From positions 62,001 through 126,000 of the forward strand of contig NZ_PRLE01000006.1 of the NCBI RefSeq assembly GCF_003287495.1: a DNA stretch of 64,000 nucleotides. Direction: 5' to 3'. The notes beneath the pieces were generated by a model that saw nothing but the letters and a program-made list of their open reading frames with translations, made no database searches and was not told where the DNA came from. Shown here piece by piece: positions 19,499 through 22,711 of this stretch; position 1 is the first letter of the stretch, and the number at the start of each line of letters is the position of its first letter. Source of the DNA: Faecalibacterium prausnitzii. GTDB taxonomy: Bacteria; Bacillota; Clostridia; Oscillospirales; Ruminococcaceae. The position numbers were made by a program, and so were the translations under genes.

Positions 19499-19572
19499 TG
19501 GGGATTTGCATAGTGGTAGTGCGGTAGACTCTGACTCTACTTGTGGGAGTTCGATTCTCTCATCCCCAACCA
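19499..19572 (+). tRNA. tRNA-Gln (anticodon CTG)
   Basis: Cloverleaf read by eye: acceptor TGGGGAT/ATCCCCA, D stem GCAT/GTGC, anticodon stem GTAGA/TCTAC with loop CTCTGAC (anticodon CTG), T stem GGGAG/CTCTC around TTCGATT. The 3' CCA is encoded. Confidence 0.93.
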
Positions 19573-19600
19573 AACCGCAGTCAATTGGCTGCGGTATTTT

Positions 19601-19673
19601 CGGGGCATAGCGCAGTTGGTAGCGCGCCTCGTTCGGGACGAGGAGGCCGTGGGTTCAAATCCCGCTGCTCCGA
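19601..19673 (+). tRNA. tRNA-Pro (anticodon CGG)
   Basis: Acceptor CGGGGCA/TGCTCCG (one GU pair), D arm GCGC..GCGC, anticodon stem CCTCG/CGAGG with loop TTCGGGA (anticodon CGG), T stem GTGGG/CCCGC with TTCAAAT. CCA is not encoded. Transcribed with tRNA-Gln. Confidence 0.93.
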
Positions 19674-19676
19674 CTG

Positions 19677-21049: not shown

Positions 21050-22000
21050 TCAGCGAGGCAGCTCCTCCACCACCGGTTCTGCCGGGGGCGGCGTCAGGGT
21101 GGAGTGCTCCACCACAAACTTTGCCGCCCGGTTGGCGGCCATGCCCTGCCGCAGCTTCCGGGCGTCGTTGGCGGGGAACGTCTTCTCCCCCTGCTTTTTC
21201 ACGTCCCAAGCGGCCAGCGCAGTGGCCACCTCGGCCTCGGTGGGCCAGAGGTGTTCTTTCCCTGCTACCAGCAGCAGGCCCAGCCGGCTGCGGAGCTTCC
21301 GCTCGGCGTCTGCATGGAGCTGCTGGCGGAACTCCTCCACGGTCTGGCCCTGCACTTTTAAGTATTGGTCAAAATTGATGTTGTTGGCCTGCATCCGCAG
21401 GTTGAACTGCCGCTGCTCGGCAAAGTAGTTGCCGGCCACCAATTGCTTGGGCAGCGGGCCCTTGACCTCATTGCCCAGTTGGGCCACCAGCTCCCGCTCG
21501 GCCAGCATTTTGCCCTGCTCACAGCGCTTGGCGTACAGCTCCCGGGTCACCCGCTCCCGCAGGGCCTGCTTGCCTGCGGCATCGGCGGCACGATCCTCAT
21601 CGCCATGGAAACGGTTGATCTCCAATTCAATGGTCAGCTCCCGCAGAGGCCGGGGCTGGATGGGCTGCACAAAGCCGGTGTACCGGCCCAGCTCCAGCGG
21701 CGGCACGCAGAAGAACTGCGCCCCGGCCCGGAATCCCTCGGCCCGGTTGACGGCCAGCAGTTCAAAGTCCGGGTCCGTGACCGGGAGGAGCTTGTGGTTT
21801 TCCACCAGTTCCGCGTACAACGGGGAAAATCCCGTTAAAATGGCCCGGTTGACGGCCGCCGCCATCAAATCTTCCTCGTCGGCGGGCGGGTTCTCCCCCG
21901 CCTGCTCGGCCGCAATGGCCTCTTCCAGCTCCTGAGCCGATGCCGTAAACACCACCCGGCAGTCGCCGGGCTCGGCCATTCCAAAGTGTTCCAGTTTCAT
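21050..22000 (-). CDS. Trigger-factor-like chaperone without PPIase domain
   Basis: 316 residues. Residues 1-105 follow the Trigger_N layout (RVVFTASAQELEEAI, DLMAAAVNRAI, LVENHKLLPVTDPDFELL, then PPLELGRYTGF), but the ribosome-docking GFRxGK loop is missing and no FKBP domain follows. The rest matches the trigger factor C-terminal arms (LPKQLVAGNYFAEQRQFNLR, NFDQYLKVQGQTVEEFRQQL, KLRSRLGLLLVAGKE). It therefore looks like a trimmed trigger factor (normal length about 430) that holds client proteins without binding the ribosome in the usual way. AAGGAGG precedes the ATG. It follows the DUF3592-like gene by 12 bases. The homology is by eye. Confidence 0.75.
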   Translation of the reverse strand: MKLEHFGMAEPGDCRVVFTASAQELEEAIAAEQAGENPPADEEDLMAAAVNRAILTGFSPLYAELVENHKLLPVTDPDFELLAVNRAEGFRAGAQFFCVPPLELGRYTGFVQPIQPRPLRELTIELEINRFHGDEDRAADAAGKQALRERVTRELYAKRCEQGKMLAERELVAQLGNEVKGPLPKQLVAGNYFAEQRQFNLRMQANNINFDQYLKVQGQTVEEFRQQLHADAERKLRSRLGLLLVAGKEHLWPTEAEVATALAAWDVKKQGEKTFPANDARKLRQGMAANRAAKFVVEHSTLTPPPAEPVVEELPR

Positions 22001-22012
22001 GGTGTATCCTCC

Positions 22013-22551: not shown

Positions 22552-22579
22552 TTGACATTTCCGGAATCCATGGTATAAT
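22552..22579 (+). promoter_or_regulatory. Promoter of tRNA-Leu
   Basis: TTGACA (22552-22557), 16-base spacer, TATAAT (22574-22579). Confidence 0.92.
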
Positions 22580-22624: not shown

Positions 22625-22708
22625 GCGGATATGGCGGAATTGGCAGACGCGTTAGATTCAGGTTCTAATCGGGGCAACTCGGTGGAGGTTCAAGTCCTCT
22701 TATCCGCA
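22625..22708 (+). tRNA. tRNA-Leu (anticodon CAG)
   Basis: 84 bases with a long variable arm. Acceptor GCGGATA/TATCCGC, anticodon stem TTAGA/TCTAA with loop TTCAGGT (anticodon CAG), variable arm around CGGGGCAACTCGG, T loop TTCAAGT. CCA is not encoded. The last 19 bases plus two are repeated in inverted form three times downstream. Confidence 0.94.
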
Positions 22709-22711
22709 CTT

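Follow-up and report, generated by a model that had tools for sequence, protein, structure and literature searches.

A cut-down, additional trigger factor (TF) is encoded beside a membrane-protein gene in Faecalibacterium prausnitzii, an arrangement suggesting that a chaperone of the ribosome was turned to use at the membrane. The gene lies within the window, the whole stretch of 64,000 nucleotides that was analysed. Its interest is in the domain cut combined with a strict pairing with the membrane-protein gene, in a genus of gut commensals of which one genome holds five TF-related proteins. These are labeled TF1-TF5 in this analysis, and the gene in the window is TF4. The parts of TF4 and of its surroundings are as follows.

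21050-22000, minus strand: TF4 coding sequence, a PPIase-less TF paralogue of 316 aa with an ATG start
21689-22000, minus strand: N-domain (residues 1-104), the ribosome-binding-domain fold of TF without the docking loop, from VIA-align
21860-21913, minus strand: short acidic loop region (residues 30-47) replacing the docking loop, from comparison of charge and length
21569-21610, minus strand: putative excision scar of 14 residues (131-144), against 116 in TF2 that include the FKBP domain, from the alignment
21107-21568, minus strand: C-terminal arm (chaperone) domain (residues 145-298), from the Trigger_C match and the model helices
21074-21106, minus strand: Pro-rich C-terminal tail HSTLTPPPAEP (residues 299-309), from column conservation
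22007-22012, minus strand: Shine-Dalgarno-like GGAGGA of TF4, inside the 12-nt gap after the partner stop codon
22013-22390, minus strand: upstream partner gene for a DUF3592-like membrane protein of 125 aa, from Pfam, hydropathy, model and co-occurrence

Domain content and predicted fold of TF4

In Pfam searches, Trigger_C matches residues 146-263 of TF4 with an E-value of 7.3e-15 and 55.8 bits, above the cut-off of 22.7, and it is found in all 21 TF4 orthologues at E<=1 (best 6.9e-17). Trigger_N gives a weak match to residues 58-111 (13.7 bits, below the cut-off of 22.2), and the whole protein scores 53.6 bits against TIGR00115, the NCBIfam equivalog model for tig, far under its cut-off of 180.2. 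At the same E<=1, FKBP models match none of the 21 orthologues, no parvulin (rotamase) domain is matched in TF4 or its orthologues, and no SecB domain is matched in the TF4 protein or anywhere in its own genome. By hydropathy, TF4 has no membrane segment, and a signal-peptide-like stretch is absent from the 21 orthologues, the highest 17-residue Kyte-Doolittle mean being 1.32.

A PDB sequence search with TF4 alone as the query returned no TF and only weak unrelated matches, which was resolved by the fold search. The AlphaFold2 model made from 21 sequences (mean pLDDT 93.5, pTM 0.85) has residues 2-20 as N-domain strands and helices at 141-178, 185-205, 210-217, 221-248, 255-263 and 276-298, and Foldseek matches it best to structures of TF: 1w26_A (E 1.3e-7), followed by 2vrh_A, 3gty_X and 7zgi_A. 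Superposition of the whole chain is loose: the three best Foldseek matches have rmsd of 11.0-12.8 A and TMq of 0.46-0.49, and the three best VIA-align matches have rmsd of 7.6-9.8 A. The VIA-align match to 3gty_X covers 281 residues at 8.4 A with a Z of 12.3, where values below about 13 can reflect a common arrangement in mostly helical models. Residues 1-103 of the model align with the isolated N-domain 1oms_B at Z 10.0 and rmsd 2.5 A over 98 residues. In the model, therefore, the N-domain match is firmer than the whole-chain match, and the large whole-chain rmsd indicates that the orientation of the domains differs or is uncertain in TF4.

Trigger factor proper (tig; TIGR00115; Trigger_N, FKBP_C and Trigger_C) thus shares its N-domain fold and C-terminal arm domain with TF4, but TF4 has an acidic loop, no docking motif, no PPIase and a score under the equivalog cut-off. 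The same N and C layout is known from E. coli TFdeltaPPIase constructs, but these are engineered and their docking loop is intact. Two other kinds of protein resemble the arms. Mycoplasma MPN555 (1zxj_C) aligns with residues 97-308 of the model at Z 5.8, below a secure Z, with the N-domain outside the alignment. The likeness to SurA/PEB4-type periplasmic chaperones is weak and within the range of unrelated proteins (3rgc_B, Z 5.2; 1m5y_A, Z 4.6), and unlike them TF4 has no signal-peptide-like N-terminus or parvulin domain.

Loss of the docking loop and of the FKBP domain

In all 22 canonical TFs from the loci retrieved for comparison, the loop region is 37 residues long with a net charge of +5 to +7, and it contains GxRxG in each. 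The loop region of 15 TF2s also has 37 residues, with a net charge of -4 to +2, and that of TF4 has 13-22 residues with a net charge of -6 to -2 in 21/21 orthologues; the motif is found in 0/15 and 0/21, respectively. Judging from these regions, TF2 seems to have a degraded form of ribosome docking, and TF4 seems to have lost it. Since motif and loop are absent and the loop charge is reversed, TF4 is probably not docked on ribosomes in the manner of TF.

In the alignment, residues 152-267 of TF2, which include its FKBP match (164-244), correspond to only 14 residues in TF4, and this indicates that the FKBP domain is lost by a clean excision. A hairpin formed by a retained last FKBP strand was considered and dropped, because the kept piece aligns with the pre-FKBP helix and is a helix in the model. 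The preliminary description had proposed a TF-like protein lacking the docking loop and the FKBP domain. This is borne out by the Trigger_C match above the cut-off, the TF-like N and C folds, and the absence of FKBP matches and of GxRxG from all 21 orthologues; both the TF arm fold and the Trigger_C profile match, on which that description had staked its reading, are present in TF4.

Paralogues and origin of TF4

Five genes encode Trigger_C proteins in the genome carrying the window (G000; 2.68 Mb, 19 contigs). Pfam confirms the layouts of the four other than TF4, with FKBP in tig, TF2, TF3 and TF5. A full-length tig elsewhere in the genome, which the preliminary description had advised looking for, was found (C8) as the canonical copy with GFRKGK; this copy, not TF4, precedes clpP- and clpX-like genes (clp names read from sequence). 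TF2 (C13; L002:703-1998, plus strand) is a full-length paralogue with the degenerate docking motif GFAKGEAD and a loop charge near zero. Two such copies are present in genome G020, and no match above 38% identity was found outside the genus in a 197-genome family draw. TF3 (C14; L003:1036-2019, plus strand) consists of FKBP and Trigger_C without the N-domain and has no lipobox; relatives 55-78% identical are present in seven other Faecalibacterium genomes, counted among those whose regions were retrieved. TF5 (C18; L005:1435-2688, minus strand) is an FKBP and Trigger_C protein with a lipobox, and similar proteins are the usual form of a second Trigger_C copy in the 20 family proteins examined. 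These 20 secondary proteins are a selection among the matches listed, one of them being the TF3 of G020; all of them keep FKBP_C, and the layout of N and C only occurs in none. A lipobox is found by pattern in 10/20, and seven more have, by eye, a hydrophobic start ending in Cys. Also among the 20, the TF3 of G020 is without a lipobox-like start, and the displayed N-terminus of L110 and L120 is not the true one.

A tree was built from 307 shared columns of 40 rows: 11 of the 21 TF4, 13 TF2, 7 tig from the genus and 9 further TFs from the family. One of its branches, supported at 100/100, has TF4 and TF2 together on the same side, and TF2 as a single group is less sure (90/63). In this tree, whose branches are long, the AU test rejects placing TF4 with the tig of the genus (p-AU 0.0002); the alternative clade for that test was picked after the first tree. 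By this phylogeny TF4 is a paralogue of the TF2 line, and descent from the canonical genus tig is ruled out by the p-AU value. A quick tree of all five paralogues, with long branches, was not relied on.

Distribution and selection

Of the 31 genus genomes, 21 carry a full-length TF4 at 62-100% identity, its own genome counted. Orthologues at seven named loci (F. longum, F. hattorii, F. prausnitzii and others) are 70-76% identical, and two of the seven share TF4 coordinates with the genus genomes G027 and G029. In a family draw of 297 genomes, five of them from the genus, full-length TF4 was found in four of those five only and in none of the 292 non-genus genomes (E<=1e-15); the other matches listed are to the C-domain of proteins whose open frames have at least 440 residues. 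In a class draw of 391 genomes it was found in its own genome and in none of the 390 others (E<=1e-12). Both draws are samples of the family and the class, and within the genomes drawn TF4 is so far known only from Faecalibacterium. Because six of the ten genus genomes lacking TF4 are less than 90% complete, some absences of TF4 and its partner may be assembly gaps. G020, however, is 99% complete and has no TF4, so that the genus can do without it.

The dN/dS analysis covered 15 of the 21 TF4 genes and 11 partner genes. For the 12 closest TF4 pairs the ratio is 0.058-0.165, and its median over all 105 pairs is 0.235, which is not especially low; an open frame with a purine-rich Shine-Dalgarno-like sequence ahead of the ATG is present in 21/21 orthologues. 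By these ratios TF4 is under purifying selection. A pseudogene reading was ruled out by dN/dS and conservation.

Conservation along TF4 is high in the linker, in the YFAEQR-bearing helix and in the C-terminal tail. Among 16 segments compared, the tail HSTLTPPPAEP (299-309) is the best conserved, with a mean column conservation of 0.92; 14 others lie at 0.64-0.88, and the final 7 residues at 0.41. Residues S300, T301, L302, P305 and P306 are invariant. In the alignment, TF2 terminates shortly past HSTI, without the Pro-rich part. The tail is a candidate binding peptide.

The adjoining membrane-protein gene

The partner gene lies directly upstream of TF4 and ends 12 nt ahead of it; the gap is 12-16 nt across 20 loci and its own locus. 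Every one of the 21 genomes with TF4 has a partner orthologue (E<=1.9e-32) adjoining it. The ten genus genomes without TF4 yielded none; one of them, G019, gave a weak partner-like match (E 0.008). The neighbourhood was compared over about 5.6-6 kb per side (0.9 kb upstream at L042), with antisense frames left out. No flanking ORF is common to the window and the seven named loci; the most widespread one occurs in 5/8 and not in the window, and none of the ORFs flanking the pair in the window is shared with the seven named loci. TF4 and its partner are a fixed tandem gene pair with varying outer neighbours, although neighbouring genes can be gained or lost together in a single event.

By hydropathy and the model (pLDDT 83.1), the partner consists of a transmembrane helix, a five-strand beta domain and a second transmembrane helix. 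DUF3592 is matched in 18/18 partner members at E<=1 (best 3.3e-8), and the partner in the window scores 22.8 bits, under the cut-off of 25.3. A fold search of the partner gave no significant match (best E 0.09), and a search of the open-access literature for DUF3592 found one paper naming it, whose title points to an unrelated subject. Only seven relatives, all distant (E 1.9e-7 to 1e-5), were found outside the genus in a family draw of 197 genomes. In 18/18 partners examined, the first hydrophobic segment is followed by 5-7 K/R against 0-2 D/E; the alignment is without L023, L024 and L026, whose partners seem to start at TTG. These basic residues suggest, by the positive-inside rule only, that the beta domain faces the cytosol, on the side of TF4.

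TF4 among other truncated or duplicated trigger factors

Additional TF copies are uncommon. In the survey of Wan et al., as far as its main text goes, 97.44% of TF-bearing genomes are single-copy and 390 are multi-copy, and Clostridia make up 209 of the 238 multi-copy genomes of Firmicutes (Wan et al., 2024; PMC11559001). One motif-bearing copy is kept in 367/390 of these, with several in 23 genomes, and surplus copies were proposed to persist mainly after ribosome docking is lost (PMC11559001). The extra copies of Myxococcus keep PPIase and C-domain with a different or absent N-domain, and they do not co-sediment with ribosomes; by the same text they are active in refolding GAPDH yet fail to stop it from aggregating (PMC11559001). 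TF4 resembles such N-degenerate TFs in being an extra, motif-less copy beside one motif-bearing TF and differs from those of Myxococcus in that the N fold is kept and the PPIase lost (PMC11559001). TF4 offers a natural test of the docking-loss idea by another route, in which loop and isomerase are cut and N-domain and arms are kept. The main text of that paper does not name Faecalibacterium (PMC11559001), and no paper on the TF paralogues of Faecalibacterium was found in the open-access literature. Another truncated TF, Tig2 of plant chloroplasts, is described as an N-domain alone that associates with ribosomes and has a new role, in ribosome biogenesis (Ries et al., 2025; PMC11731035). Tig2 is thus only the ribosome-binding domain (PMC11731035). 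TF4 is cut differently, being composed of an N-domain without the loop and a C-domain.

Possible function of TF4

TF4 is putatively a cytosolic, ribosome-independent holdase that works with, and is perhaps docked on, its DUF3592-like partner, a reading whose chances we judge to be about even. A paralogue of the TF2 line, it has lost the docking loop, with a short acidic stretch in its stead, and the FKBP domain, and has kept the N fold and the arms. It would remain in the cytosol, because it has no signal-peptide-like N-terminus, and off the tunnel exit, and its arms would hold unfolded or membrane-bound proteins post-translationally. With less certainty, the two genes may be co-transcribed, the cytosol-facing beta domain of the partner may dock TF4 at the membrane, perhaps via the tail HSTLTPPPAEP, and ribosome docking may have been exchanged for membrane docking. 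The Myxococcus homologues, which are reported in the main text not to prevent aggregation of GAPDH, speak against a simple holdase reading (PMC11559001), although this caution is limited in that their N-domain is different or absent and TF4 retains the N fold. With its fixed membrane-protein neighbour, TF4 raises the question of how TF arms are used once they have left the ribosome.

A more specific form of this proposal is a two-component, membrane-docked TF, in which the DUF3592-like receptor binds the Pro-rich tail and TF4 serves as a holdase for membrane or secreted clients in a commensal without SecB; it is possible but doubtful. A role in export like that of SurA or PrsA, which the preliminary description had entertained, is unlikely, as the N-terminus is formed by N-domain strands, lacks signal-like hydropathy and is joined to no parvulin domain. 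TF5, the separate lipobox protein with FKBP and Trigger_C in the same genome, fits an extracytoplasmic role better than TF4, for which a membrane link exists through the neighbouring partner gene, on which the preliminary description is silent.

Other functions have to be weighed against the membrane-associated holdase. It is unlikely that TF4 is a soluble post-translational chaperone or assembly factor and the membrane gene merely co-transcribed and independent: hydropathy gives no membrane segment for TF4 and the N-degenerate TFs of Myxococcus refold GAPDH off ribosomes, according to the text of that study (PMC11559001), but the partner is present in 21/21 against 0/10 genomes, at a narrow spacing and among changing outer neighbours. 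We consider it quite unlikely that TF4 is no general holdase at all but a specific assembly chaperone, or a cytosolic subunit, of the DUF3592-like protein. The strict pairing would agree with this, and the conserved linker, YFAEQR-bearing helix and C-tail could mean a fixed rather than promiscuous interface; the chaperone arm domain of TF is nevertheless retained. A link to the ribosome by another surface, for instance in biogenesis of the large subunit, has its precedent in the N-domain-only Tig2 of plants (PMC11731035) and would be in keeping with the retained N-domain fold. It is improbable, however, since Tig2 is reported to associate with ribosomes (PMC11731035), and TF4 has no motif and a reversed loop charge in 21/21 orthologues. 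A decaying, functionless duplicate or an annotation artefact, for which the failure to find TF4 in 10/31 genus genomes might speak, is practically dismissed by the low dN/dS of the closest pairs and by the open frame, ATG and Shine-Dalgarno-like sequence in every orthologue.

Other features near the gene pair

A tRNA-Leu(CAG) gene at 22625-22709 (plus strand) is divergent from the TF4 gene pair and is preceded by a sigma-70-type promoter match of 12/12 (TTGACA-16-TATAAT) at 22552-22579 (plus strand). On the same strand of the window, tRNA-Gln(CTG) and tRNA-Pro(CGG) are located at 19499-19674, just upstream of a phosphofructokinase-like gene (name read from sequence).
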